Positions 1-20,541 are shown, numbered from the stretch's first letter. The stretch is 22,066 nt of DNA from a virus (IMGVR_UViG_3300007760_000949:1-22066), one strand, 5' to 3'. Notes: generated by a model from the letters alone, not told the origin. Translations and numbers: made by a program.

Positions 1-2
1 TT

Positions 3-215
3 TTTGCTGGTTCAAATGTCTATGAGGTTTCTTCAGATGTGTTTATGAAGTGTAAAGGCGAGAAGCCCAGATATGATCGTTATGTAAAGCATGTGGGCTC
101 GGATGATTGTGGGCAAGAAATTCGTGAATTTGGGTTGAAAAATCCAAAGAAAGGTATTATAATTAAGGACTCAAAGTATGGTACTATGATGTATTTAAGA
201 AGAGGTAAAGGGTGA
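3..215 (+). CDS. C-terminal end of an unknown protein (5' truncated)
   Basis: An open frame enters from the left edge and runs 70 codons to a TGA at 213-215. The fragment is mixed charged and hydrophobic, with two cysteines near its middle and a basic tail (RRGKG). I recognise no family. It overlaps the next gene by one base (TGATG), so the two are probably translationally coupled. Because the following genes look like membrane and lysis proteins, a structural or lysis role is possible, but nothing in the fragment itself shows that. Confidence 0.6.
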   Translation, partial: FAGSNVYEVSSDVFMKCKGEKPRYDRYVKHVGSDDCGQEIREFGLKNPKKGIIIKDSKYGTMMYLRRGKG

Positions 216-460
216 TGATTGGCGGCGCGATTAAATTTGCTGCTGATTTTTTGAGTAATATTATTAATGATGTTGTTAATAAATGGATGCAGAGAGAAGA
301 GTCCAGAAAGCGTGGAGAGGCAGAGATAAAGAATGCTATATATGAAGATGCCGCAAAGAGGAAATCGAGGGCAGATAAGGTCTTGGAAAAACCCATTAAG
401 GTGGGAAAGAAACTCCTTGATGGTCTGCGTAATCGTACTGATCGTGAGTCTACTGATTAG
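215..460 (+). CDS. Small amphipathic/coiled-coil protein, possible holin or spanin partner
   Basis: This 81-residue protein starts at ATG 215, which overlaps the previous stop; an in-frame GTG at 212 is an alternative start. AGAGG at 201-205 can serve as ribosome site. The first ~22 residues are hydrophobic to amphipathic (IGGAIKFAADFLSNIINDVV). The rest is rich in Lys, Arg, Glu and Ala with helical, coiled-coil character. It overlaps the lipoprotein gene by 41 bases in another frame, an arrangement common in phage lysis genes. I do not recognise the family. The N-terminal segment is too polar to call a firm transmembrane helix, so a holin or i-spanin role is only a guess from context. Confidence 0.55.
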   Translation: MIGGAIKFAADFLSNIINDVVNKWMQREESRKRGEAEIKNAIYEDAAKRKSRADKVLEKPIKVGKKLLDGLRNRTDRESTD

Positions 461-656
461 TTGTGCCCCTGATTGTGTAAATACGACAAATCCACCTGCG
501 TGTCCTGTGTGGTCAGAAGAAGCAATTAATGAACTGGTGGCTCTTTTGGAGCTTCAATCGGAAGGCGAAATTGACATGACTTCATTGGAATGGCAACTGG
601 GAGAAAACCTAAGGCACTGCGAGGCATTGGATGCGTTTTTAGATAACGACAAGTAG
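420..656 (+). CDS. Small lipoprotein, candidate outer-membrane spanin (Rz1-like)
   Basis: With the ATG at 420 the product is 78 residues. It begins with a hydrophobic stretch (residues 2-13) ending in a lipobox, L12-I13-S14-C15, followed by APDC. This is a typical lipoprotein signal with Cys15 as the lipidated residue. The mature part carries two more nearby cysteines, a Pro-rich patch (NPPACPVW) and an acidic helical tail. The frame stays open upstream to ATG 333, which would add a basic N-region but overlap the upstream gene by 128 bases. The ribosome site does not settle the choice, although GAAAGA lies 9 bases before 420. Size, lipobox and overlap fit an o-spanin; no family match was made. 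Confidence 0.55.
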   Translation: MVCVIVLIVSLLISCAPDCVNTTNPPACPVWSEEAINELVALLELQSEGEIDMTSLEWQLGENLRHCEALDAFLDNDK

Positions 657-673
657 CGCAAGGAGTTTTTGAG

Positions 674-940
674 GTGAATGAAATTTTTAAACAGATCTTG
701 ATCGGAGTGACAATTGCGGCAATTGCTGGTGCTTGGGCTTTTGCCTCTACACGCGCATCGGTTGCGTCTGTTCAGACTGTGATGTGGGAGGTTGAGGAAC
801 TTGAGGATGATATTGATCATGATATTGAAAAGATTGGTTCTGATATCGATGATCTTAAAACATCGGTCAATAATGCCATATTAGAGCAAAGAGAATTTCG
901 CGCTCAGGTTCGAGAGAAGTTACAAATATCATCTAATTAG
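674..940 (+). CDS. Single-pass membrane protein with coiled coil, candidate holin or inner spanin
   Basis: The start is GTG at 674, with a strong AAGGAG (660-665) 8 bases upstream, giving 88 residues. Residues ~8-26 (ILIGVTIAAIAGAWAFAST) form one transmembrane helix. The remainder is acidic with regular hydrophobic spacing (VEELEDDIDHDIEKIGSDID), a clear coiled-coil pattern. One N-terminal helix plus a periplasmic coiled coil is the layout of i-spanins and of some phage holins. Sitting directly after the lipoprotein gene supports a lysis cassette. The order lipoprotein then membrane protein is the reverse of classical Rz/Rz1, so the role is inferred. Confidence 0.6.
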   Translation: MNEIFKQILIGVTIAAIAGAWAFASTRASVASVQTVMWEVEELEDDIDHDIEKIGSDIDDLKTSVNNAILEQREFRAQVREKLQISSN

Positions 941-963
941 TTATTTACAAGTGAGAAAATATT

Positions 964-1995
964 ATGAATTATGTGGACGTGAAATACGTTGGGATACTCT
1001 CATCTCAATTAGAACAATTTAAAAAGAAGAATAATAAACTTTATAATTTCAGGTGCCCCATCTGTGGAGATTCGGAAAGGAATCGCTACAAGGCAAGAGG
1101 GTATTTGTATCCAAGCCCAGACGGAAATTCTTTTATCTACAAGTGTCACAATTGCGGAGATGCCATATCTCTTGGCAATCTGATTAAGCGCGTAGATCCG
1201 ATTTTGTATAAGAAATATATTCTTGAGGGGTTTGGCAAGAAGGACAAAAGGTTCCAACCCAAGAAGACAAAAAGGGCAAAGAAGACACCCAAAATTGATG
1301 CTTCCTATTTGGAAAAGCTTGGTGCAGAGCGAGTTGATCGTATCCCAAAGAACCATGCCATCCATCAATTTATCAATGCCCGTCGCATTCCCGATTCTTC
1401 ATTAGATCGTCTATATTATATAGATGATGATAAGAAATTGGAATGGATAGACCCGATATACAAAGGGAGAATTGTCGGGAATCAACCGAGACTTATTCTT
1501 CCGTTCTTTGATCGCAGAGGGTCTTTGGTGGGCATTGCTGCGCGAGCAATCAATGCAGCATCTACCCTGCGGTATCTTGCGTTCCGTTTGGACAAGGATG
1601 CCCCGATGATCTTTGGGATGGATCGTATCAAAAAGAACTCCAGAAACCCTGTGTATGTGGTGGAGGGTCCGATTGATTCGTTGTTCCTGCCCAATGCGAT
1701 TGCTGTGGGTGGTGCCGACTTCAAGAAGTTGGCATCGGAGATTCGTAAAGATAAGTGTATTATTGTTTTTGACAATGAGCCAAGAAATAATGAAATAATT
1801 AAGAGGATGAAATCTCTCATAGATGAGGGTTATAACGTCTGTGTATGGCCCCAGAATATAAAGGAAAAAGACATCAACGATATGGTGCTTTCGGGCATCC
1901 CCGCGAGCAAAATTGAAGATGTGATAAATAAAAACACATATTCTGGCTTGAAGGCAATGGCAGCATTTAATTCATGGAAGAGGGTGAGTATATAA
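964..1995 (+). CDS. DNA primase, T4 gp61 type (zinc ribbon plus TOPRIM)
   Basis: The 343-residue product matches the usual length of T4 gp61 (about 342). It should lay down RNA primers for lagging-strand synthesis together with the replicative helicase. A zinc-binding domain lies at the N-terminus, with CPIC at 31-34 and CHNC at 61-64. The centre contains a primase-core segment (GRIVGNQPRLILPFFD, ~168-183). A TOPRIM domain follows, with its glutamate in VVEGPIDS (E234) and the metal-binding run VFDNE (D270). A basic linker at ~92-110 is rich in Lys. The gene ends TAATG, overlapping thyX by one base. The gene 41 helicase partner is not in the window. The ribosome site before 964 is weak (AAGTGAG). 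Confidence 0.93.
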   Translation: MNYVDVKYVGILSSQLEQFKKKNNKLYNFRCPICGDSERNRYKARGYLYPSPDGNSFIYKCHNCGDAISLGNLIKRVDPILYKKYILEGFGKKDKRFQPKKTKRAKKTPKIDASYLEKLGAERVDRIPKNHAIHQFINARRIPDSSLDRLYYIDDDKKLEWIDPIYKGRIVGNQPRLILPFFDRRGSLVGIAARAINAASTLRYLAFRLDKDAPMIFGMDRIKKNSRNPVYVVEGPIDSLFLPNAIAVGGADFKKLASEIRKDKCIIVFDNEPRNNEIIKRMKSLIDEGYNVCVWPQNIKEKDINDMVLSGIPASKIEDVINKNTYSGLKAMAAFNSWKRVSI

Positions 1996-2657
1996 TGAAA
2001 CAATTGACATCGAGTGAAGTTAAGTTAGTGGATTATATGGGAAGTGATTTGACAGTAGTTAACGCAGCCAGAGTGAGTTTTAATAAACATGTTGAGCAAT
2101 TCTCAATGGGTGATGAAAGACTGATTAAGTTTCTCGCAGAACATAATCATTGGACCCCGTTTGGGCATTGCTCTATTACAATACGAGAGAAGGTTCCTAT
2201 TTTTGTAGCTCGTCAACGTTTTAAACACACCGTGGGTTTTTGTTACAATGAGGTGTCTCGTAGATATGTGAGTCATGATCCTGAGTTTTTTATGCCAGAT
2301 GAGTGGAGAGCAAATCCAGAAAATAAAAAGCAAGGTTCTTCTAAAACAGAAATTGTGGAGTGGTTGTTGATAAACGAGAGAACTCCATCACTTGCGGTCG
2401 AACAGCATTATAATAAGTCGGCGAAACTATATAATGAATTGCTTGATGCTGGAGTTTGTGCCGAACAAGCGAGAATGGTTCTTCCTCAAGGAATGATGAC
2501 TGAATACTATGTAACAGGGTCGTTGGCAGCTTGGGCTAGAGCTTATAAACTTAGAGTAGAAGAAACAGCCCAAGAGGAGATTCGGTCTTTAGCTGAAGAA
2601 TGGGATAAGATCATTCGTCCTATATTTCCCGTTTCTTGGAAATATTTGATTGGGTAG
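1995..2657 (+). CDS. thyX: Flavin-dependent thymidylate synthase ThyX
   Basis: ThyX converts dUMP to dTMP using methylenetetrahydrofolate, FAD and NADPH. The start is set at ATG 1995, overlapping the primase stop, with GGTGAG 8-13 bases before it; this gives 220 residues. Family features are VVNAARVSF (~21-29), the stretch AEHNHWTPFGHC, and the FAD/dUMP signature region at 73-91. There the usual RHRxxSxNxxSxRY appears as RQRFKH...CYNEVSRRY, so the central RHR is replaced by K77-H78-T79 and one residue is added before NE. N85, E86, S88, R90 and Y91 are kept. I believe cyanophage and other marine phage ThyX proteins share this variant. The gene sits directly before nrdJ, forming a dNTP supply unit. 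Confidence 0.93.
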   Translation: MKQLTSSEVKLVDYMGSDLTVVNAARVSFNKHVEQFSMGDERLIKFLAEHNHWTPFGHCSITIREKVPIFVARQRFKHTVGFCYNEVSRRYVSHDPEFFMPDEWRANPENKKQGSSKTEIVEWLLINERTPSLAVEQHYNKSAKLYNELLDAGVCAEQARMVLPQGMMTEYYVTGSLAAWARAYKLRVEETAQEEIRSLAEEWDKIIRPIFPVSWKYLIG

Positions 2658-2700
2658 TTTACATCGAGGTAAGAAAAAAATCTCAGATAGGAGACAAAGC

Positions 2701-4008
2701 ATGACAACCCCTCAAATGACAGTTTTACAGCAATACATTCATTCGTCCCGTTATGCTCGTTGGGTTCCTTCAAAGGGAAGACGAGAAACTTGGGATGAGA
2801 CAGTAGACCGTTATGTAGATTTTTTTGAAGAACATATTGAAGAGAACACCAAGGGATCGATCAAGGATATTAAGAACAGTCTTCGTGATTCCATTTTTAA
2901 TATGGAAGTCATGCCATCCATGCGTGCCTTGATGACGGCTGGTCCTGCCCTGGCTCGTGAGAACATTGCAGGATATAACTGTTCGTTTGTCGCAGTGGAT
3001 TCTCCGCGGGCATTTGATGAGGCATTATATATTTTAATGAATGGGACTGGTGTTGGGTTTTCTGTGGAAACTCATCATATTAATAAGCTCCCGCTGGTTG
3101 CCGAGGAGTTCCATCAGACTGACACCACCGTTGTTGTTGCCGATAGCAAGCTCGGCTGGGCAAAGGCACTCAAGGAATTAGTGGCAATGCTCTATGCGGG
3201 TCAGGTTCCGAATATTGATGTTTCCAATATACGTCCTGCCGGTTCAACCCTAAAGGTATTTGGTGGCCGTGCTTCGGGTCCAGATCCTCTTGTAGATACT
3301 TTTGATGCCTTTATCAATACATTTCGGGGAGCGTCGGGTAGAAGGCTGAATTCATTGGAATGTCATGATCTGATGTGTTATGTGGCATCGTGTGTTGTGG
3401 TTGGTGGTGTTCGTCGGGCAGCGTTGATTTCTCTTTCTGATTTGACGGATGAACGAATGCGACATGCCAAGACAGGTCAGTGGTATACTACAGAACAGCA
3501 TCGGTCGTTTTCAAATAATTCTGCTGTCTATAATGAAAAGCCTGATGTTGGAATCTTTATGTCAGAGTGGTTGTCATTATACAACTCAAAGAGCGGCGAG
3601 CGTGGAATTATTAATCGCGAAGGCTTGAAGAAAAAGGTAGCAGAGAATGGTCGCAGAGATCCCGATTATGATTTCGGGGTAAATCCATGTTGTTTGTCTG
3701 GAGACACGCAGATCCACACATTAAATGGAGTAGAGTCAATTAGAACCGTTTGTGAGAAAGTGGAAAACGGAGAGCCTGTTCTTGTTCAAATGTATGACCA
3801 CAAGTTGGATAGTGTTGTTTATGGTCCGGTAGAAGCAGCCAATCTAACGCGACCAGACGCAGAACTGATTGAGCTTGAGGTTGTTGACGACGAATCTAAT
3901 GTACATACGCTTAAACTGACGCCTGATCATTTGGTATTTACTGAAAATCGAGGATATGTTAGGGCAGATGAGCTTTCTGAGGAGGATATCCTTGTTGTGA
4001 GTGTGTAA
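2701..4008 (+). CDS. nrdJ: Class II (B12-dependent) ribonucleotide reductase, N-terminal part fused to N-half of a split intein
   Basis: ATG 2701 has AGGAG at 2689-2693, 7 bases upstream. Of the 435 residues, 1-330 are the reductase (N-extein) and 331-435 the intein N-half. The reductase part shows GYNCSF with C94, matching the redox cysteine C119 of Lactobacillus leichmannii RTPR, then NGTGVGFSVE, the loop ASGPDPL, and RRAALISL. It ends in FGVNPC, whose C330 corresponds to the thiyl-radical cysteine C408. The protein then passes into CLSGDTQI, an intein start, and stops at TAA 4006-4008, so no active site exists in this chain alone. The second half is the gene at 4787. The enzyme should reduce ribonucleotides with adenosylcobalamin and so needs host or environmental B12. 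There is no N-terminal ATP-cone domain. Confidence 0.93.
   Translation: MTTPQMTVLQQYIHSSRYARWVPSKGRRETWDETVDRYVDFFEEHIEENTKGSIKDIKNSLRDSIFNMEVMPSMRALMTAGPALARENIAGYNCSFVAVDSPRAFDEALYILMNGTGVGFSVETHHINKLPLVAEEFHQTDTTVVVADSKLGWAKALKELVAMLYAGQVPNIDVSNIRPAGSTLKVFGGRASGPDPLVDTFDAFINTFRGASGRRLNSLECHDLMCYVASCVVVGGVRRAALISLSDLTDERMRHAKTGQWYTTEQHRSFSNNSAVYNEKPDVGIFMSEWLSLYNSKSGERGIINREGLKKKVAENGRRDPDYDFGVNPCCLSGDTQIHTLNGVESIRTVCEKVENGEPVLVQMYDHKLDSVVYGPVEAANLTRPDAELIELEVVDDESNVHTLKLTPDHLVFTENRGYVRADELSEEDILVVSV
3691..4005 (+). other. IntN: N-terminal half of split intein (NrdJ-1-like)
   Basis: These 105 codons follow the NPC of the reductase. Block A is CLSGDTQI, with Cys1 as the splicing nucleophile. 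Block B contains TPDH (the TxxH motif), followed by NRGYVRADEL. The product ends in ILVVSV and a stop, with no C-terminal His-Asn. The length and the motifs LTRPDAEL, TPDH, NRGYVRADEL and VVSV closely follow my memory of the natural split intein NrdJ-1, which has a 105-residue N-half at the same NPC/SEI insertion point. Confidence 0.92.
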
Positions 4009-4019
4009 ATAACAGGTGT

Positions 4020-4027
4020 TATAAATA
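4020..4027 (+). promoter_or_regulatory. TATAAATA, possible T4-like late promoter before the endonuclease gene
   Basis: An exact match to the T4 late-promoter box lies in the 53-base gap between the IntN stop and the endonuclease start, 34 bases before GTG 4062. T4 homing endonuclease genes often have late promoters. However, the window is AT-rich and four other exact copies occur, so chance is a real possibility. Confidence 0.3.
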
Positions 4028-4061
4028 GTATATGGATTGATGGCAAATCTTGGAGGCTGTT

Positions 4062-4838
4062 GTGTTGTTTAGTGAGTCTGAAAAGAAAACACTTAAATCC
4101 TGGTATAATGAATTGAATACTAAAAATCCTTCTCGGAATCAGTATTCTGTGTCTGAAAGACAATGTTGGTTAAATGCGAATCCTTGTCCGTTAACTGAAA
4201 AGATAAAACGTGTATATGATGAGGGACACGGATTTAAAACATTGGCAAAAAACCTTGATTTATCATATTCTGTTGTTCGGAGATTGTGTATAAATTATAT
4301 TGGGTTTGAAACAAGAAGAGGGACCAGCGTAGTAACTGACGCATTAAGAGCGAAAAGGCGAGAAAATGTTTTGGGAGAGAAATCTCCGTGGTTTGATTGG
4401 CCCAGAAAAATGCCTGAGATGACAGCCAAGAACGGTAAGTCTATTCAGGGATATTATAGTAGGGCGTGGGACGGTGAATATGTGTGGCTTCGCTCGACAT
4501 ACGAATACATATATGCGAAGTGGTTGGACCAATTGGGAGTGCGGTGGGAAATTGAGAAAACCTCGTTTCCATTATCTAATGGTGAAAATTATAGACCAGA
4601 TTTTTTTATATACGACGACTCGGGGGAGTTAAAAACTATTGTTGAGGTAAAGTCGAGATATTTCAATAAAGGAAACCGCGAGTATAAGTTTGATTTATTT
4701 AAGTTAGAATATTGCGGAGTAAATTGTTCAATTATAACTAATATGGACCTATATACGAAAATAGGATATCAAAAGGAACTAAAAGAATGGAAATCAAAAA
4801 GAATATCGTCAAGGGACGAGTTAGATCAATTAAGGTAG
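4062..4838 (+). CDS. Homing endonuclease, PD-(D/E)xK-like, inside the split nrdJ
   Basis: GGAGG at 4052-4056 lies 5 bases before GTG 4062, giving 258 residues; TTG 4065 or TTG 4050 are other possible starts. The N-terminal half looks DNA-binding, with a helix-turn-helix-like stretch at ~57-77 (GFKTLAKNLDLSYSVVRRLC) and a NUMOD-like segment, GEKSPWFDWPRKMPEM. The C-terminal half has RSTYE (E148), then RPDFFIYDD (D180), then VEVKS (E195, K197), a PD-(D/E)xK nuclease pattern common among phage homing enzymes and near the Vsr fold. It probably cuts intein-less nrdJ alleles of co-infecting phages at the NPC/SEI site. The last 52 bases overlap the start of the IntC gene in another frame, so the two genes may be co-translated. 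Confidence 0.85.
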   Translation: MLFSESEKKTLKSWYNELNTKNPSRNQYSVSERQCWLNANPCPLTEKIKRVYDEGHGFKTLAKNLDLSYSVVRRLCINYIGFETRRGTSVVTDALRAKRRENVLGEKSPWFDWPRKMPEMTAKNGKSIQGYYSRAWDGEYVWLRSTYEYIYAKWLDQLGVRWEIEKTSFPLSNGENYRPDFFIYDDSGELKTIVEVKSRYFNKGNREYKFDLFKLEYCGVNCSIITNMDLYTKIGYQKELKEWKSKRISSRDELDQLR

Positions 4839-4912
4839 TTTCAAATGAAGACACCTATGATCTTCAGACAGCACACCAAAATTTTTTTGCTGACAACGTT
4901 CTTGTTCATAAC
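4787..4912 (+). other. IntC: C-terminal half of split intein
   Basis: These 42 codons carry block F/G features. VSNEDTYDLQT is followed by HQNFFADNVLVHN, ending in the His-Asn pair needed for Asn cyclisation. The next residue is Ser, the +1 nucleophile. The motifs SNEDTYD, NFFA and LVHN match the remembered C-half of NrdJ-1. Its start lies within the endonuclease gene. Confidence 0.92.
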
Positions 4913-5833
4913 TCCGAGATTATTCTTCGCCCAAATGGATTCTGTAATCTTTCGGAGGTGGTGATTCGAGAGGATGACACGATGGCAGACCTTGAGAGGA
5001 AGGTTGAGGTTGCCACCATTATTGGGACATTACAAGCCACGCTTACCAAGTTTCGTTATCTTCGTGCCGATTGGAAGAAGAACGCAGAGGAGGAGAGGCT
5101 GCTTGGTGTCAGTTTAACGGGAATTATGGACAATAAGATCACCAACGGAAAAAGTGGAGACTTGAAGGAGGTTTTGAGGATTTTAAAGGCAGTTGCCATT
5201 GACACCAATAAGCATTGGGCTGGTGTTCTGGGCATTCCGCAATCGGTAGCAATTACGACAGTAAAACCCTCAGGGACGGTATCGGTTCTGGTTGACTCTG
5301 CGAGCGGCATCCATTCTCGGTTTTCTCCACAATATATTCGTACCGTTCGAGCAGACAAGAAAGATCCAGCCAGTCGCTTTATGATTGATCGTGGTGTTCC
5401 TGTAGAGGATGATATTATTGCGCCGGATCATAATTATGTTTTTTCGTTTCCTGTCAAGGCACCAAAGGGTGCCGTGTTCACGACAGATCTTTCGGCAGTT
5501 GAACAGCTTGAGCGATGGCTGGCATATAAGCAGCATTGGTGCGAACATAACCCATCGTGTACCGTCACGGTGAAGGAGCATGAGTGGGTTGAAGTGGGCG
5601 CGTGGGTATATGAGAATTTTGATGATTTGACTGGTGTTTCTTTCCTCCCACATACGGACCATATATATAAACAAGCACCATTTATAGAAATTGATAAGAA
5701 AACATATACAGAGTTAACTAAAGCCATGCCAAAGGAATTGGATTGGGAGGAGATGGGAGAATATGAAACTTCAGATCAGACGATTGGCTCTCAAACAATG
5801 GCATGTACAGGTGGGAGTTGTGAAATAGTTTAA
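4787..5833 (+). CDS. nrdJ: C-half of split intein fused to C-terminal part of class II ribonucleotide reductase
   Basis: ATG 4787 has AAGGA (4773-4777) 9 bases before it, within the endonuclease gene. Residues 1-42 are IntC and 43-348 the reductase C-extein. The extein opens with SEIILRPNGFC. Its Cys (C53 here, C341 after splicing) lies 11 residues after the radical Cys, the same spacing as C408 and C419 in L. leichmannii RTPR. Further on come VKPSGTVSVL and SGIHSRFSP, the substrate-loop region. The C-terminus is CTGGSCEIV, the CxxxxC redox pair that recharges the active site. The gene ends in TAATG, overlapping the next small gene by one base. It is active only after trans-splicing with the product of 2701-4008. 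Confidence 0.93.
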   Translation: MEIKKNIVKGRVRSIKVVSNEDTYDLQTAHQNFFADNVLVHNSEIILRPNGFCNLSEVVIREDDTMADLERKVEVATIIGTLQATLTKFRYLRADWKKNAEEERLLGVSLTGIMDNKITNGKSGDLKEVLRILKAVAIDTNKHWAGVLGIPQSVAITTVKPSGTVSVLVDSASGIHSRFSPQYIRTVRADKKDPASRFMIDRGVPVEDDIIAPDHNYVFSFPVKAPKGAVFTTDLSAVEQLERWLAYKQHWCEHNPSCTVTVKEHEWVEVGAWVYENFDDLTGVSFLPHTDHIYKQAPFIEIDKKTYTELTKAMPKELDWEEMGEYETSDQTIGSQTMACTGGSCEIV

Positions 5834-6003
5834 TGTCAATAGAAACGGAATATGAAAATAATACGGTTGTTCTCGATTTAGAATGTGTCGAGTGTGATGT
5901 TATTTATGCGATTTACACAGATGTTCATGGGTTCGTAGAAGAGGCACGATATTGCCCGTTTTGCGGTACATATAACGTAGATTATGATCGGGTAGAAGAA
6001 TAA
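5833..6003 (+). CDS. Small zinc-knuckle protein (56 aa), unknown function
   Basis: ATG 5833 shares its A with the nrdJ stop (TAATG), and TAA 6001-6003 shares its last A with the next ATG. The gene is therefore coupled on both sides, which strongly supports its reality despite its size. Four cysteines form two CxxC pairs: C18-V-E-C21 and C41-P-F-C44-G. This is a typical zinc ribbon or knuckle; the rest is acidic. It has no recognisable nuclease or helicase residues. Its place between nrdJ and a RuvC-like nuclease suggests a role in nucleotide or DNA metabolism, but no function can be assigned. Confidence 0.75.
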   Translation: MSIETEYENNTVVLDLECVECDVIYAIYTDVHGFVEEARYCPFCGTYNVDYDRVEE

Positions 6004-6560
6004 TGCCAGTTTTAGCTGGAATTGATTATTCGCTATCGTGTCCAGCAATTTGTGTTTATGACACAAAAAGAGACGCTTTTTGCTATGAAACCGTAAATTT
6101 GTATTTCCGTTCTAATTTAATGCGATTTGAGGCATTCAAGGAAGGTAATCTGGAGGGCAGTAATCACGGTCCCTGGGCGTGCGAAATGGATCGTTATGAT
6201 GATATCAGTTCATGGACACTGAACATACTCGATTCCAATTCTGTAGATCAGGTTTATTTGGAGGGCTACTCGTTCGGGTCCACAGGGCGAGTTTTCAATA
6301 TAGCCGAAAATACTGCTATATTGAAATACAATTTATGGGAAGAATTAATTCATTACGAAGTCATTCCTCCCACGACCGTCAAGAAATATGCAACCGGAAA
6401 AGGCAATGCATCTAAAGAAGATATGTTTAATAAATTTAATGAAGAAAATCCAAATGCAAATTTAAAGGAACTTTTGACACCGAGATCATCTGGTGTTATC
6501 AGCCCGTTGAATGACATTATAGATGCTTATTATATTTTAAAGTACGGGTTATTTAATTAA
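6003..6560 (+). CDS. RuvC-like RNase H-fold nuclease (putative Holliday junction resolvase)
   Basis: The 185 residues show the acidic catalytic pattern of the RuvC/RNase H fold. D8 lies in AGIDYSLSCPAICV on strand 1, E87 in VYLEGYSFGS at the end of strand 4, and D171 and D174 in PLNDIIDAYYIL on the last helix. The central helix (GRVFNIAENTAILKY) and the motif VIPPTTVKKYATGKGNASK, typical of phage RuvC-like proteins, lie between them. The enzyme probably resolves branched DNA during replication and packaging. In T4 this job is done by the unrelated endonuclease VII, and many marine phages carry a RuvC-like protein instead. It ends the replication module, 22 bases before a promoter. Confidence 0.82.
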   Translation: MPVLAGIDYSLSCPAICVYDTKRDAFCYETVNLYFRSNLMRFEAFKEGNLEGSNHGPWACEMDRYDDISSWTLNILDSNSVDQVYLEGYSFGSTGRVFNIAENTAILKYNLWEELIHYEVIPPTTVKKYATGKGNASKEDMFNKFNEENPNANLKELLTPRSSGVISPLNDIIDAYYILKYGLFN

Positions 6561-6575
6561 CAAAAAAAATGCATT

Positions 6576-6610
6576 TTGGGCCTTGACAAACGGGTCAGAT
6601 GTGATAAAAT
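6576..6610 (+). promoter_or_regulatory. Strong sigma70-type promoter with extended -10
   Basis: TTGACA (6583-6588) is followed after 16 bases by TAAAAT (6605-6610), preceded by TG one base upstream (6602-6603), an extended -10. Transcription would start near 6617, just before the gene at 6635. The seven bases before the -35 (TTGGGCC) are the same as at the promoter at 21936. This marks an early or middle transcription unit read by host RNA polymerase. Confidence 0.75.
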
Positions 6611-6634
6611 TATAGGAATTTGGAGGGGAGCTGT

Positions 6635-6817
6635 ATGAGCGGAGTAAAGACAAGGCGGAGCGGTGAGTGTGTTCATCGCTTTTGGTATGAGAAGGGAACT
6701 GATAATAAGTTGATCAGGGTTCTTCGGATTGTTCGTGGAAAGAAGTCTTGGTTTTGGGCTGTCCGTACTGGTGATGGTTATCGTAAGATACCCTCTGATA
6801 ATATCGAACGTCGATAA
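6635..6817 (+). CDS. Small basic protein of unknown function
   Basis: ATG 6635 follows a purine-rich GGAGGGGAG (6622-6630), giving 60 residues. The protein is strongly basic, with several aromatic residues in VHRFWYEKGTD and KKSWFWAVRTGDGYRK, suggesting a small beta-rich, possibly nucleic-acid-binding fold. No family is recognised. It is the first gene after a consensus promoter, so it is probably expressed early, as is usual for small host-takeover or regulatory phage proteins. That role is inferred from position only. Confidence 0.7.
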   Translation: MSGVKTRRSGECVHRFWYEKGTDNKLIRVLRIVRGKKSWFWAVRTGDGYRKIPSDNIERR

Positions 6818-6840
6818 GTTTTTTGAACAGGCGCATGAGT

Positions 6841-6870
6841 TGGGTCGGCGAACCCATGTTGCCTTTTTTT
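6841..6870 (+). terminator. Weak hairpin plus T-run between two small genes (possible attenuator)
   Basis: GGCGA (6847-6851) can pair with TTGCC (6859-6863, one G-U pair), immediately followed by seven Ts (6864-6870). A competing stem pairs TGGGT (6841-6845) with ACCCA (6852-6856), which would exclude the first. Five-base-pair stems are weak, so this is at most a partial terminator. Confidence 0.3.
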
Positions 6871-6897
6871 GAAGCCGACAATATGAGGAATGAAAAT

Positions 6898-7119
6898 ATG
6901 GCATTTGCAACAAATTCTAAGACACGAAAGATCGTTGACTATCTTGCAGAGGGTCGTACCCTTACTGCGGCACAGGCTCATGCCCGCTTCGGCGTGCAGA
7001 ACTTCAGTGCCACGATGTCAACCATTCGGAGGACCGTCGAGGCATATGGTAATTGGGAAGTTACCAAGGATGTCGCGAAGAACGGTGCCATCCGGTATGG
7101 TATTGTTCGACTTTCGTAG
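6898..7119 (+). CDS. Winged-helix/HTH-like small protein
   Basis: ATG 6898 has GAGGAA (6885-6890) 7 bases upstream; in-frame starts from 6823 have no such site. The 73-residue product reads as a helix-turn-helix unit: RKIVDYLAEGRTLTAAQ (helices 1 and 2), then RFGVQNFSATMSTIRRTVE (turn and recognition helix). A short beta wing follows (WEVTKDVAK...IRYGIVRL). Similar small DNA-binding proteins are frequent in marine phages. It may act as a transcription regulator or a host-modifying factor; no target is visible. It shares the 6583 promoter with the preceding gene and is followed by two hairpins that close the unit. Confidence 0.7.
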   Translation: MAFATNSKTRKIVDYLAEGRTLTAAQAHARFGVQNFSATMSTIRRTVEAYGNWEVTKDVAKNGAIRYGIVRLS

Positions 7120-7290: not shown

Positions 7291-8259
7291 ATGTCAGAAG
7301 ATAGTTTTGAGTTTCGTATAGATCAAGAAGAATCCAAGCCAATGGGGGGAACTGAATTAATCTACAATCGTGTTGTGGATTGTATTGATGATGATCTAAA
7401 GGATGAGTTTGTCATTATTCCACAACGTGTTCGTGAAGAACATATAAAAGATTCTCGTAAGAAGATTCTGTGGCTTCATGACCTTGCAGAAGATCCAGAA
7501 TCCGATCACTTAAAGTATGAAGATAATCGACAGATGTTTGAAAAGTTTGTCTTCCCGAGCAATTGGGCACTTTGGGAGTTTCATCAAAAGCTGGGAGTTC
7601 CTTTAGAGAATTCTATTGTTATCCCAAATTGTATTGAGCCTATTCCCGTTCACGAAAAGCCCAAGGATCAGAAGAAGAAGATTGTTTATTTTTCAACTCC
7701 ACATCGTGGTTTAAATATTCTTGAGTCCGTGATTCGTGTAATGGAAAATGCGCGTAATGATTTTGAAGTTGATGTATATTCTAGCTTCAAGCTATATGGA
7801 CGGGATCAGCAAGACGAGCTTCCTGAGTTCAAGGAGTTGTATGAGAGGCTTGGTGATTTGAAGACGGTTAACTATCACGGAACGGTTTCTAATGATGTGA
7901 TTCGTAAGGCATTGACAGAGACGCACATTCTTGCATACCCAAGTAACTATCTAGAAACATCTTGTCTTGTTGCGATTGAAGCAATGGCTGCGGGGTGCAT
8001 GGCAGTTGTTCCTAATTGGGGAGCCCTTCCTGAAACTTGTGCTCGGTTTGCCACGATGTATGATTACCACCCAAACCCAGCACAACATGCCGCGGTTCAT
8101 TATCATTATCTTTGTGGTGCTTTGAATAATTTTTGGAATGATACCAATCAGAGTATTTTGGAGATGCAGACCTCGTACTATAATTACTTCTACAGCATGG
8201 ATATGTGCAAGTTTAAGTGGAACTCTTTGTTAAGAGGATTGCTTAATCGCGAGGATTGA
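7291..8259 (+). CDS. Glycosyltransferase, GT-B fold, GT4-like
   Basis: ATG 7291 has GGGAGG (7276-7281) 9 bases upstream, giving 322 residues. The C-terminal nucleotide-sugar-binding half is clear. KKKIVYFSTPHRGLNIL opens the second Rossmann domain, YHGTVSNDVIRKAL precedes the donor site, and the EX7E motif is E222...E230 in ETSCLVAIEAMAAG, followed by PNWGALPE. The N-terminal acceptor domain is shorter than usual and contains SKPMGGTELIY, a GG loop common in GT4 enzymes. It should transfer a sugar from a nucleotide donor with retention. It opens the island after the terminator; an AT-rich TATATATA stretch at 7243-7252 could be its promoter, but no -35 is visible. Confidence 0.85.
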   Translation: MSEDSFEFRIDQEESKPMGGTELIYNRVVDCIDDDLKDEFVIIPQRVREEHIKDSRKKILWLHDLAEDPESDHLKYEDNRQMFEKFVFPSNWALWEFHQKLGVPLENSIVIPNCIEPIPVHEKPKDQKKKIVYFSTPHRGLNILESVIRVMENARNDFEVDVYSSFKLYGRDQQDELPEFKELYERLGDLKTVNYHGTVSNDVIRKALTETHILAYPSNYLETSCLVAIEAMAAGCMAVVPNWGALPETCARFATMYDYHPNPAQHAAVHYHYLCGALNNFWNDTNQSILEMQTSYYNYFYSMDMCKFKWNSLLRGLLNRED

Positions 8260-8294
8260 AAATTGGATTGGTGGTTATAAAAAGGAACTGAAAT

Positions 8295-9218
8295 ATGATT
8301 GGTAAACTTGCAGTGTATGTATTAACATATCACAATCACACAGCAGATCAACTGGAGAGGTGTTTTTGGTCGATTGATAATCAGCCAACCGAGTTGGAAT
8401 ATGATGTAATTGTAAATTACAATTCAACCAAGCCCGAGCATTTTGAGTCGCTCAAGAAGAATGTTCCTAAAGAATATACTTTGATCAAAACGGAAAGTGA
8501 TGGATTTACTGGAAAGGGTACAAACTCTTGTCTTGATCATTATCTTGAGAACTATGAAGATAAAGGTTGGACTCATATGTGTATCATTGATGGTGATGAT
8601 TATTACTACCCAATGGCATTTGATATTTTAAACGAGCTTGAGCAGAAGTCAGATTTTGATTATCTTAGTGGAATGGCACATCATGTAGATTCTTTGCGTC
8701 CGCTTCCTCCACATCGGGACGATCCAAGAAAGGTTTATCCATACCAACCCAAGCGTTGGATCTGGTCGTTTGTTGATAATAGGCTTCCAGTGTATCCTTA
8801 TATTTTTTGGAATGGCGAACAAATTCCCGGCGGCGAAGTCACTCTTTGCATGTCTACGAAGGCAGTTAAGGCAGACATTCGCGCACTGGAAGGTCCGAAT
8901 AGAGTAGATGATTATTTCTTTATGTTGAAGGCAATCATTGCACACATCAACAAAGAAATTAGATTTGTAAGTACGGATTGTAATGATATTTACGTTTATG
9001 ATTGTACTCAGGACAGTATTACTCGCGGAAATGATGACTTTGATGAAGAGCGTGGTTGGCCTTTTGATAAGAATGGTCTTGTTTATGCAGAGAACAATAA
9101 GGAAGCGTACAAGATATTGGAAGGAGTTACTCGACAACATCTTCCTTATGTTACGATGCCACAGATTTGGACGCATGAATTAAAGTGTCAGTATGCTGCC
9201 ATGAACGAGATTGAGTAA
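8295..9218 (+). CDS. Glycosyltransferase, GT-A fold, GT2-like
   Basis: The 307-residue protein begins with KLAVYVLTYHNHTADQLERC, the first strand and helix of a GT-A domain. It has the metal-binding DGDD at 99-102 in CIIDGDDYYYPMAF. Divergent spacing before the DxD and a long C-terminal half (to 307) distinguish it from the shorter canonical GT2 enzyme that follows. GGEVTLCMSTKAV and a run of aromatic residues (KRWIWSFVDNRLPVYPY) lie between them. Sugar and acceptor cannot be told. The stop shares a base with the next start (TAATG), so the two are coupled. Confidence 0.75.
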   Translation: MIGKLAVYVLTYHNHTADQLERCFWSIDNQPTELEYDVIVNYNSTKPEHFESLKKNVPKEYTLIKTESDGFTGKGTNSCLDHYLENYEDKGWTHMCIIDGDDYYYPMAFDILNELEQKSDFDYLSGMAHHVDSLRPLPPHRDDPRKVYPYQPKRWIWSFVDNRLPVYPYIFWNGEQIPGGEVTLCMSTKAVKADIRALEGPNRVDDYFFMLKAIIAHINKEIRFVSTDCNDIYVYDCTQDSITRGNDDFDEERGWPFDKNGLVYAENNKEAYKILEGVTRQHLPYVTMPQIWTHELKCQYAAMNEIE

Positions 9219-9979
9219 TGAGTACACATTTCAAAATTCTGATTCCTGTATATAATGCAGAGTCATATATCAAAAATGCATTGATTAGTGTGATGAATCA
9301 GGATTATGATAACTTTGAGTGTATCATTACTGATGATTTCTCTACAGACAACACTGTAGATGTTGTTGATGATTTCATTTATGAAAATAAGCTAGAAGAC
9401 TATTTTCATCTCCGTGAGAATCAGAAAAGAATGTTTGCATTGTATAACCTATACTGCATGATTCTTTCTTCTGATGCAGATGACGAAGATGTATATATTA
9501 CTTTGGATGGAGATGACTGGTTAGAGGGTAATGGCGTCTTGTCCAAATTGGATCAGATTTATATGGAAGAAGATTGCTGGTTGACCTATGGAAGTTATGT
9601 TATGTATCCGAGTGGTCATGATTCGTCTTTTCATGTGAGCGAGTATCCCAAAGAAATCATTGATTCTGGAGATTTTAGAAAAGATCCCCAGTGGCGAGCA
9701 AGCCATCTTCGCACCTTCAAGCACAAGCTCGCGAAGAGAATTGAAGAAGATAATCTTGTTGATGAGGATGGCAGTTACTATAGTTATGCATATGATCAGG
9801 CACTCATGTTCCCGATGTTGGAGATGGCTCGCGAACGCATTCGATTTATTCCTGATATACTCTGTGTGTATAATGATGAGAATCCTATGAATGTTCATAA
9901 AGTAGATCCAGAAGTTCAGATTCAGATGGCAAAGAGAGTTCGTAATAATCATAAGAAAAAGGATCGTCTGGAATTATGA
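9218..9979 (+). CDS. Glycosyltransferase family 2 (canonical GT-A)
   Basis: This 253-residue enzyme has a textbook GT2 N-terminus (FKILIPVYNAESYIKNALISV, then NFECIITDDFSTDNT). Its nucleotide-sugar/metal motif is D97-G-D-D100 in ITLDGDDWL. The later YAYDQALMFPMLEMA and IRFIPDILCVYN stretches match the acceptor side and the characteristic C-terminal strand of GT2 enzymes. It inverts the anomeric centre and uses a UDP- or dTDP-type donor; the precise sugar is unknown. It overlaps its upstream neighbour by one base and the next gene by four (ATGA). Confidence 0.9.
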   Translation: MSTHFKILIPVYNAESYIKNALISVMNQDYDNFECIITDDFSTDNTVDVVDDFIYENKLEDYFHLRENQKRMFALYNLYCMILSSDADDEDVYITLDGDDWLEGNGVLSKLDQIYMEEDCWLTYGSYVMYPSGHDSSFHVSEYPKEIIDSGDFRKDPQWRASHLRTFKHKLAKRIEEDNLVDEDGSYYSYAYDQALMFPMLEMARERIRFIPDILCVYNDENPMNVHKVDPEVQIQMAKRVRNNHKKKDRLEL

Positions 9980-10887
9980 ATATTTTTATGGATCGGGTGG
10001 ATTTTACTTCTACGGCTGGACCTCATTGGTTTGGTTGTAAATTGGCAGATGCATTTTTAAAGAAGGGGCATGATGTTCTTCGAGCGGCACCTGATGTGCA
10101 ACTATCGTTTGTTCAGGCGTCGATTAGGCTTCCGGGGGTTCCCTTGTTCCAGAGGCTTGATGGTATTTGGTATGATACAAAAACAGACTATGAGAAGATG
10201 AATGAGCCTATTAAAAAAACTTATGACGTTGCTGATGGAGTAATCTTTCAGTCCAAATTTGATCGTGATTTTATCAGTTATAATTTCGGAAACCATTCCA
10301 ACTATACTGTTATTCACAATGGGGCTGATTTGAATTATATAGAGAGTGTGCCTACCGCCACGGGTTTAGATAATGTACCAACTGTGTGGGCTTGCGCTTC
10401 ATCGTGGGTGAATGGCTGTGGTGAGTTGAGACACAATAAAAGATTGAATGAAAATGTTCGATATTTCCAAGAGCATTCTTCTCCGACTGACATTCTTTGT
10501 GTTGCTGGAGATGTTGGGAATTTTGAGAATCCAGATCCAAAAAAAATAATGTTTTTGGGTGAGCTGGAGGTCTTTACTTTGATTTCCCTGTACAAGCGGG
10601 CTGATTGGTTTATACACCTAGCTTCTCAAGACCATTGCCCAAACGTTGTGGTGGATGCCAAAGCAGCGGGGTGTCGAATTGTGTGCGCTTCCTCTGGCGG
10701 AACCTCTGAGGTTGCAGGAAAAAATGCTGTTGTGGTAACAGATCCAAATGAACATGGATTTGCGGCATATAACTATAACGTACCAACTACTTTGGATTTC
10801 AGTAAGAAGTTGGATAATTGGAATGATGATGTGGATTTGTCTATTGATTCTGTGGCAGATCAATATTTGAAATTTATGGAGAAGTGA
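9976..10887 (+). CDS. Glycosyltransferase, GT-B fold, GT4-like
   Basis: The 303 residues comprise an acceptor domain (AGPHWFGCKLADAFLKKGHDV, then GVIFQSKFDRDFISYNFG and TVIHNGAD) and a donor domain with FIHLASQDHCPNVVVDAKAAGCRIVCASSGGTSEVAG. The region aligned with EX7E reads D...D (DHCPNVVVDAKAAG), so both acidic positions are Asp rather than Glu. VIHNGAD, linking the two domains, is the classical GT4 hinge. It probably works in the same glycan as its neighbours. It is coupled to the previous gene by an ATGA overlap. Confidence 0.85.
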   Translation: MNIFMDRVDFTSTAGPHWFGCKLADAFLKKGHDVLRAAPDVQLSFVQASIRLPGVPLFQRLDGIWYDTKTDYEKMNEPIKKTYDVADGVIFQSKFDRDFISYNFGNHSNYTVIHNGADLNYIESVPTATGLDNVPTVWACASSWVNGCGELRHNKRLNENVRYFQEHSSPTDILCVAGDVGNFENPDPKKIMFLGELEVFTLISLYKRADWFIHLASQDHCPNVVVDAKAAGCRIVCASSGGTSEVAGKNAVVVTDPNEHGFAAYNYNVPTTLDFSKKLDNWNDDVDLSIDSVADQYLKFMEK

Positions 10888-10888
10888 T

Positions 10889-11491
10889 ATGAAGTTATTA
10901 AAGGATTATGATTCTTATGATGATTATGTTGATCATCAAAAAGAAAAGACCTTAGATCCTGTTAGGCGAAAGAAGTGGCTGGGCGAAGAGTGGGACTTGA
11001 AACTGAACGGATTTTCTTATATTTTTGGAAACACTTGTAAAAATATTTTAGAAGAGGGTATGTCCGCATTATGCATTGGCGCAAGAACTGGTCAAGAGGT
11101 TGTGGCGCTAAAGAATCTTGGGCTTGACGCAATTGGTATTGATCTGGTGGAATGCGAACCACATGTTGTTTTGGGGGATATGCATGATTTAGATTATGAT
11201 GATAACTCGTTTGATTTCGTGTTTACAAACGTATTCGATCACTCATTATATCCTAGTGAAATGATTTCTGAGGTTGAGCGGGTTTTGAAAATTGGTGGGT
11301 ATTTTCTTTTACAGATGCAAGTTAGTCAAGAGATTGATGATTATGCAGAGAATGAAATTCAATCTGTAGATGATGATATAGTTACATTATTTGAGAATTC
11401 TGATGTTGTCGTCAATAGAAATATTCCTAGAAATTTTGCGGGAATGAATTGGGAACTTTTAACCGCCAAGGTGGATAATAATGAAGAGTGA
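10889..11491 (+). CDS. SAM-dependent methyltransferase (Methyltransf_11-like)
   Basis: The 200-residue class I methyltransferase has motif I ALCIGARTGQEVVAL at ~60-74 and an acidic residue after strand 2 in AIGIDLVE. GDMHDLDYDDNSFDFVFTN corresponds to motifs II and III, and EVERVLKIGGYFLL to the post-III strand. The first motif reads GARTG rather than GxGxG, a common variant. In this setting the likely substrate is a sugar, giving an O- or N-methylated residue, but a small molecule or protein is not excluded. It overlaps the next gene by 11 bases. Confidence 0.82.
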   Translation: MKLLKDYDSYDDYVDHQKEKTLDPVRRKKWLGEEWDLKLNGFSYIFGNTCKNILEEGMSALCIGARTGQEVVALKNLGLDAIGIDLVECEPHVVLGDMHDLDYDDNSFDFVFTNVFDHSLYPSEMISEVERVLKIGGYFLLQMQVSQEIDDYAENEIQSVDDDIVTLFENSDVVVNRNIPRNFAGMNWELLTAKVDNNEE

Positions 11492-12134
11492 TTTGATTGA
11501 AGACATTGATGGCTTGGTAGTTCCTGAAGAATATCAGAAAATTTGGGATGATATCAATCTACCGATTCAGACCCAAAAAGGCATGGATCACAATTTATCA
11601 GAAGAGGCACTACTCACTTGTTTAGATCAATTGTCTAAGCGGGGGTACTATTTGGTATCCATCGCGGAACAATTTGGCGCGAAGAATTTTGCAGAGGTTG
11701 GCACCGCACAGGGTTGGCAATTCTATACATTTGCTCATTATGCCAAAAAGGTTGGTGGTTTTGTTTGGAGTTGTGATATTCGCGATGTTCGGGACAGAAA
11801 CTATGCTAAAGAATATGCGGACGTAACAGATTTCGTTTCTGGAACAAGTGAAGAGATGGCAGAGGCAATTAAGTTTTCTGGTGAAAAGATTGACATGTTT
11901 TATATTGATGGGTGGCATGATCGAGGGTGGGTGTTGCAGGACGTAGAGCGACTTAAAGAATTTCAGTCGGATAATCCTATTTGGATTTTTGATGATTACG
12001 ATGAGCGGTTTGGTTGCTCTTTGGATATAGATGAAATCTGCGAAAGAATGCCAGATCATTATGTGTACCATGTAGGAAATGCAGCTAGCAGCCAACCCAA
12101 TCATCAGGTTGCCGTGTTTGGGAGGATTGAATGA
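11481..12134 (+). CDS. SAM-dependent methyltransferase-like (Methyltransf_24 type)
   Basis: This 217-residue protein has a class I Rossmann methyltransferase core. FAEVGTAQGWQFYTFA (~70-85) is the SAM-binding loop, VWSCDIRDV (~95-103) the acidic strand, and FYIDGWHDRGWVLQDVE (~139-155) the motif that typifies Methyltransf_24/CmcI-like proteins. IWIFDDYDE follows. The N-terminal 65 residues are helical. It probably methylates a sugar hydroxyl, as many such island proteins do. Its start overlaps the preceding methyltransferase by 11 bases and its stop overlaps the next gene (ATGA). Confidence 0.78.
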   Translation: MKSDLIEDIDGLVVPEEYQKIWDDINLPIQTQKGMDHNLSEEALLTCLDQLSKRGYYLVSIAEQFGAKNFAEVGTAQGWQFYTFAHYAKKVGGFVWSCDIRDVRDRNYAKEYADVTDFVSGTSEEMAEAIKFSGEKIDMFYIDGWHDRGWVLQDVERLKEFQSDNPIWIFDDYDERFGCSLDIDEICERMPDHYVYHVGNAASSQPNHQVAVFGRIE

Positions 12135-13150
12135 ATATTTTGTTTTATTCGAGTCATGATGATATTTCTGTTGGGTCGTATAGAATATGGATTCATGATT
12201 ATTGTTCATATTTTAGAAGTATGGGTATTGATTCTACAATATCATACAACCTAACTGACGATGAGATTGAATCGTATGATGTTATAATTTTAGGAAAGTG
12301 TTTATTCGATCATCATAAATCTATAGTCGATTATGTGAATCTAAAATACCCAAATAAACTTGTTGGGACAATTACACCATCTTCTTCTGTCAGAGATATT
12401 CCTTTTGATTTTGTTATGGCGGGGTCTTTGGAAGAAGCTGATAGTTTATCATTCCACAGAAATGTTATTTTGAATGCACATATTGAGTCTATTTTTTTAG
12501 ATTCCGAAACGAAGGTGCATCAAAATTCAGACACACTTAAACTTTGTGTTCATGGGTGGTCCGCGCACTTGGCGTCATTTGCTCCAAATTTGCAATGGGC
12601 ATTAGAAGAATTTGAAAAAGAGCAGGACTATGAGTTGGTAATTATTTCTGAAACTTCAAATCTTTCTGGCTGGGATATAGGTAAGCCTAATATTAAAAAA
12701 ATCTGTGCAAAGAAATGGGGTATTGATACCATTAGGTCAGATATTCAGTCGTGTGATATAGGAATAGTTCCGGGGATTTATGATTTAACATCTACAGCTT
12801 TTTCAGATGTTGTTAATAACAAGAACGGCTTTTTCGATACTGATTATGTTTTTAGGTTTAAAAACAAATGCAACAATGGCCGTTCTCTTGCATTTTTTCA
12901 ATTAGGTGTCCCGGTGGTTGCAGATTTTAGCCCTAGTCATTTTCATATGATGGGCGATGGTGAGTGTGGATTTGTTGCCCATACAAAAGATGGCTGGTTG
13001 AATTCATTTAGAAAATTAAAGGGTTGTAGTTCTAGGCAGATTATTTCGGATAATGCTAGGTCGAAAGTTGAACTAGAATATGATCCGTTATATTGGGCAG
13101 ATAGATATTATCAGGAGCTTTATTCTTTGTGGAGGGATAAAAATGAGTAG
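12131..13150 (+). CDS. Putative glycosyltransferase, GT-B-like
   Basis: This 339-residue protein opens with MNILFYSSHDDISVGSYRIW, a Rossmann strand-loop typical of GT-B enzymes. Its second half contains LKLCVHGWSAHLASFAPNLQ (start of the donor domain), SCDIGIVPG, and CNNGRSLAFFQLGVPVVAD, where an acceptor-like Gly-Val-Pro-Val turn follows the usual donor-site helix. The EX7E glutamates are not evident, so it is a divergent member. From here the DNA is clearly more AT-rich than in the preceding genes. The tail overlaps the next gene's start by 8 bases. Confidence 0.65.
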   Translation: MNILFYSSHDDISVGSYRIWIHDYCSYFRSMGIDSTISYNLTDDEIESYDVIILGKCLFDHHKSIVDYVNLKYPNKLVGTITPSSSVRDIPFDFVMAGSLEEADSLSFHRNVILNAHIESIFLDSETKVHQNSDTLKLCVHGWSAHLASFAPNLQWALEEFEKEQDYELVIISETSNLSGWDIGKPNIKKICAKKWGIDTIRSDIQSCDIGIVPGIYDLTSTAFSDVVNNKNGFFDTDYVFRFKNKCNNGRSLAFFQLGVPVVADFSPSHFHMMGDGECGFVAHTKDGWLNSFRKLKGCSSRQIISDNARSKVELEYDPLYWADRYYQELYSLWRDKNE

Positions 13151-13877
13151 AGGCGTTTTGTATATTGGGTTTGGTGATAATTTTGTAAAGGAAATGCTTT
13201 TCTCCGCCGAGTCGGTCAAGGTCAATTGTCCCACCATGCACATTACCGTTTTTTCTGACAGGGAGGTTGATTCTGAATTTGTTGATGAGTGCAGGCTTAT
13301 TGAAGTGAAACACATTAGAGCCAAAGTTGATTATATTCAGTTTGCTCCATATGATGAAACAATTTTCTTAGATACCGATACGATTGTTGACCATGATATA
13401 AGTGAAATGTTTGGCATCTTGGAGAAATATGATTTTGCAATGTGCCATGACTTGGCACGCAAGCGAGAAAATGTATCCAAGCTCATTCCAGAATATGATG
13501 ACATTCCATATGCATTTTCTGAGGTTAATCCGGGCGTAATGGTTTTTTCTAAAAACGAGAGAGTGGATAGTTTTTTTTCTAATTGGAGGGAATTGTTTTA
13601 CAAGTATTTTAATGTCTGGCCTTATGAACAGCCCACTTTTAGAGTTGCTCTCTGGCAAAGTGATATGTCTCTTTACATACTTCCGATTGAGTATAATGTG
13701 AGAGGAAAGAATGTCAGGGAGAAGGCGGTGAATATGCATGATGAGTTTGGCGAGGGTCATTTGAAGGCAAGGGTTTATCATATGCACGCAGACTCGAAAA
13801 TTAATCAAGGTCAGTATGATATTCAAAGTGTTGATGAAGCCTTAGAATATTGTAAGAAAAATTATCTGGAGTATTAG
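13143..13877 (+). CDS. Glycosyltransferase, GT8-like (DxD)
   Basis: ATG 13143 has GGAGGG (13131-13136) 6 bases upstream, giving 244 residues; the frame is open further upstream but without such a site. The DxD motif is D77-T-D79 in IFLDTDTIVDHDI, preceded by a typical Rossmann strand (VLYIGFGDNFV) and followed by EVNPGVMVFSKN, as in GT8 and related nucleotide-diphospho-sugar transferases. A His-rich C-terminal stretch (ARVYHMHADSKIN) resembles the third metal/UDP ligand region. It is probably a retaining transferase using a UDP-sugar. Confidence 0.75.
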   Translation: MSRGVLYIGFGDNFVKEMLFSAESVKVNCPTMHITVFSDREVDSEFVDECRLIEVKHIRAKVDYIQFAPYDETIFLDTDTIVDHDISEMFGILEKYDFAMCHDLARKRENVSKLIPEYDDIPYAFSEVNPGVMVFSKNERVDSFFSNWRELFYKYFNVWPYEQPTFRVALWQSDMSLYILPIEYNVRGKNVREKAVNMHDEFGEGHLKARVYHMHADSKINQGQYDIQSVDEALEYCKKNYLEY

Positions 13878-13882
13878 TAAAT

Positions 13883-15142: not shown

Positions 15143-15159
15143 TATGAAAGGTATATGCA

Positions 15160-15375
15160 ATGATAGATTTGGAATCGTCGTTAAAACAAAAGGGTGAATA
15201 TGTTACTCAGATAATACATTTTAGGGATGGTGTTAAAAGAACATTTGAGAACGTGAAAACCAGTAATATAAAACAAGGACAAATGACAAAATTAGAACTT
15301 AAAGATGGTAGGTATATTCTTGTGAACGATTTTAATGTATTATGTATAGAAGTGTTTGGTGAAAGTGATGAATAA
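15160..15375 (+). CDS. Small unknown protein (71 aa)
   Basis: ATG 15160 has GAAAGG (15146-15151) 8 bases upstream. The product is a compact, beta-rich, Lys-rich protein (VTQIIHFRDGVKRTFENV, then MTKLELKDGRYILVNDFNVLCIEVF). Alternating hydrophobic and polar residues suggest a small barrel or sandwich. There is no signal peptide, membrane helix or catalytic motif. The last 8 bases overlap the following RmlD-like gene, so it is translationally linked to it. No family is recognised; a regulatory or chaperone role within the island is possible but unsupported. Confidence 0.65.
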   Translation: MIDLESSLKQKGEYVTQIIHFRDGVKRTFENVKTSNIKQGQMTKLELKDGRYILVNDFNVLCIEVFGESDE

Positions 15376-16833: not shown

Positions 16834-16834
16834 T

Positions 16835-17695: not shown

Positions 17696-17699
17696 AACA

Positions 17700-20540: not shown

Positions 20541-20541
20541 A

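Follow-up and report, generated by a model that had tools for sequence, protein, structure and literature searches.

A fractured nrdJ gene in a viral contig, its NrdJ-1-like split intein and the endonuclease gene between the halves

Fractured genes, in which a split intein interrupts a conserved enzyme and a stand-alone endonuclease gene separates the two parts, were reportedly described by Dassa et al. in 2009. NrdJ-1, an ultrafast and widely used split intein, came from a marine metagenome survey. Two other papers report the same arrangement (PMC3653736, PMC7090010), with seven nrdA and two nrdJ cases in ocean data (PMC3653736), and thus bear out second-hand the statement of an earlier sequence-based reading (the original prediction) that the arrangement is known. 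The splicing half-time of NrdJ-1 is ~26 s (PMC13123727), a figure that is NrdJ-1's own and not that of the intein described here. The window analysed, a 22,066-nucleotide (nt) stretch of viral DNA (IMGVR_UViG_3300007760_000949:1-22066), carries a ribonucleotide reductase gene, nrdJ, that reads as a member of this class. The class shares with the window an enzyme broken by a split intein, an endonuclease between the halves and a phage origin; the window differs in an endonuclease with a PD-(D/E)XK signature and fold, for which no Vsr-type match was found, and in the endonuclease-deleted sister allele at hand. What is new here is that sister allele, the phage contig encoding NrdJ-1 and a series of endonuclease losses, some of which the original fractured-gene paper may already hold.

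Layout of the fractured gene and its relation to NrdJ-1

The reductase is encoded by two open reading frames (ORFs), the nrdJ N-half with the N-terminal intein fragment (IntN) at 2701-4008 and the C-terminal fragment (IntC) with the nrdJ C-half at 4787-5833.

2701..3690, + strand: N-extein, NrdJ residues 1-330, ending in ...FGVNPC (phrog_367 E 7e-93, TIGR02505 E 2e-49)
3691..4008, + strand: IntN, 105 residues, with Cys1, TPDH and its own TAA stop at 4006-4008 (8ubs E 4e-22, TIGR01445, alignment)
4065..4838, + strand: putative homing-endonuclease gene, 257 residues (alignment, AlphaFold2 model, Foldseek)
4787..4912, + strand: IntC, 42 residues, with its own ATG, ending in VLVHN (PDB 8ubs E 5e-9, alignment)
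4913..5833, + strand: C-extein, NrdJ residues 331-636 (SEIILRPNGFCNL...CTGGSCEIV), with Ser+1 first (phrog_367 E 3e-80; PDB 1l1l, RTPR, E 5e-17)

The division into 330 + 105 residues, an endonuclease gene and 42 + 306 residues was thus recovered as originally predicted. Both extein halves are full length and stop-free, and they cover phrog_367 end to end, with the N-half at positions 28-388 abutting the C-half at 389-696. TIGR02505 is the top NCBIfam match for each half, each scoring below the whole-protein cut-off of 340 bits, and both the NPCSE motif and the C-terminal CxxxxC are present; the interrupted gene is assigned by sequence to the class II (adenosylcobalamin, AdoCbl) ribonucleoside-triphosphate reductase NrdJ, and the locus to the fractured genes, with their split intein and interposed free-standing endonuclease gene. 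A feature missing from the earlier reading is the 52-nt overlap (4787-4838) of the endonuclease ORF with the IntC ORF in a different frame, which recurs between the endonuclease 3' end and the IntC start in L004, L009, L020, L056 and L081.

The insertion point lies between Cys and Ser of FGVNPC/SEIIL (slashes mark insertion points), which we take to be the catalytic N-x-C-x-E motif of ribonucleotide reductases. The intein sits inside this motif, and therefore the presumed thiyl-radical cysteine is carried on the N-half, and presumably the catalytic Glu and the C-terminal cysteines on the C-half.

Alignment agreed with the original prediction that each intein half is complete: Cys1, TPDH, the terminal His-Asn and Ser+1 at the IntC junction are all intact, and Cys1 and the terminal Asn are invariant across 13 related inteins. 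The split intein is predicted to work. The likeness to NrdJ-1 likewise held when both halves were compared with it, with 46% identity for IntN and 65% for IntC, the PDB 8ubs matches listed above, and the insertion site and gene order of the NrdJ-1-encoding contig. The window intein is placed by these comparisons as a sibling of the laboratory intein and an NrdJ-1-type allele (NPC/SE site, Cys1, Ser+1).

That contig is L081 (IMGVR_UViG_3300047403_000169), whose IntN agrees with the NrdJ-1 chain at all 102 residues compared and whose IntC matches at 36 of 37 residues, the sole mismatch being the terminal Asn, which is Ala in the solved construct. Its genes run from an endolysin and other small genes through primase, thyX and nrdJ-N-IntN to the endonuclease and IntC-nrdJ-C, showing NrdJ-1 in its native phage setting. 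The two loci have in common the NPC/SEI site, Cys1 and Ser+1, the split point, the primase-thyX-nrdJ order and an interposed endonuclease of one family (62% identical); they differ in the intein fragments, as given above, and in nrdJ, which is 61-64% identical. The window thereby supplies a new NrdJ-1 sibling, and the loci surveyed offer protein engineers new split-intein pairs whose +1 residue is serine or cysteine.

The interposed endonuclease and its late promoter motif

The endonuclease reading frame is open from 4050 to 4838, with its best start at TTG 4065, which aligns with the ATG of the L081 homologue, and its stop at 4836-4838.

4020..4027, + strand: TATAAATA, exact match to the T4-type late promoter motif, ahead of the endonuclease gene
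4052..4056, + strand: GGAGG, Shine-Dalgarno sequence 8 nt ahead of the endonuclease start TTG 4065 (sequence)

The protein comprises an N-terminal helical, helix-turn-helix-like region and a C-terminal PD-(D/E)XK nuclease domain, with E147, P178-D179 and E194-x-K196 invariant in ten family members. Its AlphaFold2 model (mean predicted local distance difference test, pLDDT, 83.7; predicted template-modelling score, pTM, 0.54) matched the restriction-endonuclease-like folds TT1808, DrdV, TnsA, VRR_NUC and T7 endonuclease I in Foldseek (E 0.01-1), and family members gave weak Pfam matches to DUF1064, TnsA_N and Phage_endo_I. On the invariant residues and the modelled fold it is classified as a PD-(D/E)XK nuclease. 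It is not demonstrably a member of the Vsr-like (EDxHD) family, since no Vsr match appeared in Pfam, in the PDB profile search or among the listed Foldseek matches, a set of searches that included no direct profile comparison with I-Bth0305I.

Among cultured phages, the only relative found is a partial match of 36.8% over 87 residues in the Gordonia phages Pupper (gene 114, L083) and SCentae; in Pupper it stands alone, with a tail sheath gene on one side and a virion protein gene on the other. In L034:5898-6911 (- strand), an NrdJ-1-like split intein at the nrdJ NPC/SE site has an HNH-like ORF (FFQIHHIKPRCE) in place of the PD-(D/E)XK gene, possibly an endonuclease swap within one intein allele.

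The motif TATAAATA equals the T4 late promoter consensus and starts 12 nt past the last base of the IntN stop, and in L081 it lies equally far downstream. Among 30 non-redundant split loci, eight have it within a stretch of 85 nt at the IntN stop, compared with 0.99 expected under a Markov model and 0.32 in random windows of those loci; ATAAATA was found there in 13, compared with 3.0 and 0.7. The pattern was picked after the window motif had been seen, which makes these figures descriptive. The endonuclease is probably expressed late from this promoter of its own, like T4 I-TevI, I-TevII and I-TevIII and Aeh1 mobE, which have a late promoter inside an early or middle gene. I-TevI and mobE are held to late translation by a hairpin around promoter and start (PMC2988022), and strong hairpins in that position were found in the relatives L009 (z -4.6), L046 (z -5.2) and L020 (z -3.0). 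Those systems differ in having a group I intron or no splicing element, and in their nuclease families. An I-TevI-like autorepressor operator, that is, a copy of the homing site near the promoter, was sought in the window, L081 and L004 and rejected, as the best 20-mer matched at 13 of 20 positions, within the range of shuffles; the window likewise gave no Rfam match, and a structured RNA such as a group I intron was rejected.

Gain, movement and loss of the element

Among viral contigs, the 80 nearest reductase loci were surveyed for empty sites, and 79 are uninterrupted; the remaining one is L017, a contig of the window's own phage. Eight of the empty loci, L090-L097, resemble the window's halves at 73-87% identity; the primase-thyX-nrdJ-ruvC order is kept in seven of them, L097 being too short upstream. 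As the site is empty in close relatives, the window lineage most likely acquired the element after separating from them. The original prediction had called fractured genes with the endonuclease in place rare, which stands for nrdJ overall, where one of the 80 nearest loci is occupied and has lost the enzyme (L017), but not for occupied split sites, many of which keep the endonuclease gene.

Movement can be followed in the sister pair L003 and L004, relatives whose IntN-endonuclease-IntC segments are 79-96% identical in nucleotides (100-nt bins) whereas the flanking nrdJ is mostly 60-78% identical, the step having its edges close to the intein-extein junctions. Synonymous sites are saturated in the extein (proportion of synonymous differences, pS, 0.78) and stand at 0.42 for IntN and endonuclease, with a ratio of non-synonymous to synonymous change (dN/dS) of 0.07 for IntN and 0.13 for the endonuclease. 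The comparison shows that in these relatives the whole unit, not the endonuclease alone, has moved, and it points to purifying selection on IntN and endonuclease. A co-conversion tract beside the insertion was rejected, there being no identity step at the junction between the window and its empty relatives, and possible inteins suggested by long tblastn extensions in phages of Pseudomonas, Vibrio and Sinorhizobium were dismissed, the annotated genes being uninterrupted.

Loss is documented in L017, which has two mismatches with the window over 1-4016 and few more to ~7 kb (99.9%).

4008..4669, + strand: region that lacks 657 bp in L017, with an AATAA direct repeat on either side, at 4008-4012 and 4665-4669 (contig comparison)

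The deletion takes away the promoter motif along with the N-terminal region of the endonuclease and the nuclease motifs of its active site. The IntN stop and the IntC start survive, as do the final 57 codons of the endonuclease, and nrdJ stays split. Elsewhere, a short piece from the N-terminus of an L046-type endonuclease survives in L058 (E 5e-4), and L029 has only a short gap between its intein halves.

Related split inteins interrupt class I NrdA at the homologous SNLC/CEI site in L025, L027, L030, L031, L038, L039, L040, L053, L054, L057, L059, L062, L063, L066, L069, L070, L072, L076 and L079. Every endonuclease state occurs there, from full HNH-like genes (nine loci, gaps of ~965 nt) through remnants (L057, L054, L030, L027, L063) to endonuclease-free loci with gaps of 42, 37, 3, 1 and -4 nt. 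These inteins (L031, L039, L025 and others) resemble that of the window in their related IntN and IntC, the homologous motif and the full-to-lost series, and differ in reductase class and in an endonuclease that is an HNH-like protein of ~311 residues. In a tree of IntN plus IntC, five pairs each join a locus that has an intact endonuclease to one that does not (L079/L025, L069/L053, L070/L054, L051/L029 and L046/L058), and the gene, nrdJ or nrdA, is split in all five despite the loss. As read from these contigs, the endonuclease has been lost repeatedly and the gene left fractured without re-fusion.

Contiguous inteins occur at both the nrdJ and NrdA sites (L036, L028, L050). In L028, L037, L041 and L055, a contiguous mini-intein stands in NrdA at the split-intein site, followed by an apparent part of a second intein. 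The L028-type mini-inteins are possibly re-fusions of split inteins, a placement with tree support of only 0.30 for L028.

On balance, we lean slightly towards a ratchet, in which an endonuclease arrives with the split intein, spreads and is repeatedly lost while the gene does not re-fuse. If so, free-living split inteins, laboratory ones included, would be the residue of past homing, and the window and L017 would represent both states within one phage population. The set of empty, endonuclease-bearing, remnant, endonuclease-free split and contiguous loci makes this proposed origin testable by comparison and by phage crosses.

For the window itself, a mobile split-intein element with trans-splicing reductase halves and a PD-(D/E)XK homing endonuclease is, in our judgement, very probable. 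The element sits at the catalytic N-x-C/S-E codons of nrdJ in what appears to be a T4-superfamily phage and would yield two precursors, NrdJ-N (330) with IntN (105) and IntC (42) with NrdJ-C (306). IntN and IntC would associate, Cys1 and Ser+1 would carry the acyl transfers and the terminal Asn would cyclise, releasing a 636-residue reductase. From what is known of the family, splicing should be required for activity, because the presumed thiyl cysteine is on a different half from the catalytic Glu and the C-terminal cysteines. The endonuclease, probably expressed late from its TATAAATA promoter, would cleave uninterrupted nrdJ in co-infecting phages, and break repair would copy in the whole unit, whose movement is shown by comparison of the relatives. 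Decay or deletion of the endonuclease leaves an endonuclease-free split intein with the gene still in two pieces, as contig comparison shows.

Several points weigh against this account. L017 is a single assembled contig; TATAAATA occurs five times in the window, a number that is not unusual (14 of 100 shuffles); and the leader hairpin of the window, unlike those of the T4 and Aeh1 systems, is not significant (z -0.6). The endonuclease family had no sequence match in PDB by family profile search, and the Foldseek E-values are modest, the best being 0.013 and all above 0.01. Relatives, not the window, supply the evidence on dN/dS and transfer, the window's nearest element being too diverged, with saturated synonymous sites.

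Alternatively, trans-splicing could be real but the interposed endonuclease could have lost its homing activity, with the element now inherited vertically. Other nrdJ genes similar to that of the window yielded no near relative of the element, and an endonuclease-deleted allele exists; but the catalytic residues of the endonuclease are invariant, and the site being empty in the closest relatives implies that the element was acquired fairly recently. We consider this alternative unlikely. It is very improbable that insertion of the endonuclease split nrdJ into halves that assemble non-covalently without splicing. Such a reductase exists and functions in Aeh1, where nrdA is split with mobE (PMC2988022), but here the two intein fragments are undamaged, retain every catalytic residue and are conserved across families. 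In L003 and L004, moreover, IntN and IntC are under stronger constraint than the exteins, and unspliced intein tails would lie within the catalytic loop. Even less credible is a decaying pseudogene no longer used by the phage: the frame is split and the ORFs overlap, but the full-length, stop-free halves span one family end to end, are 100% identical as proteins in the sibling L017, and keep their layout in many independent phages. Least credible is a false join made in assembly between two variants of the phage population, as closely related contigs with and without the endonuclease might suggest: misassembly is unlikely because L002 (IMGVR_UViG_3300007513_000976), from another data set, spans the region at 99.99% over window 1-7002 with one mismatch, and because unrelated contigs (L081, L004, L009, L056 and others) repeat the layout, gene order and codon of insertion.

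Neighbouring genes and further inteins in relatives

Family matches confirmed the neighbours named in the original prediction.

964..1995, + strand: T4 gp61-type DNA primase (phrog_47 E 1e-70; nearest are T4-like cyanophages, ~40%)
1974..2657, + strand: ThyX (PF02511 E 2e-45)
6003..6560, + strand: RuvC-like Holliday-junction resolvase (phrog_159 E 3e-32)

In T4-like cyanophages a primase of this type adjoins nrdA, and the window therefore fits a T4-superfamily phage.

In L004:3096-7443 and L003:3-5028, nrdJ is fractured twice, a second split intein lying at KPSG/T with an HNH-like endonuclease gene between its halves, and the reductase is therefore encoded as three polypeptides. L003 has, in addition, a contiguous intein at QFC/N and another intein C-terminus near its 5' end, and its reductase is followed by a GIY-YIG-like gene.

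A long series of glycosyltransferase, methyltransferase and aminotransferase-like genes occupies window 7291-21827. Identity with L017 drops from 99.9% to ~60-79% beyond roughly 7.25 kb, a sharp boundary between a replication block and a variable surface-sugar island.

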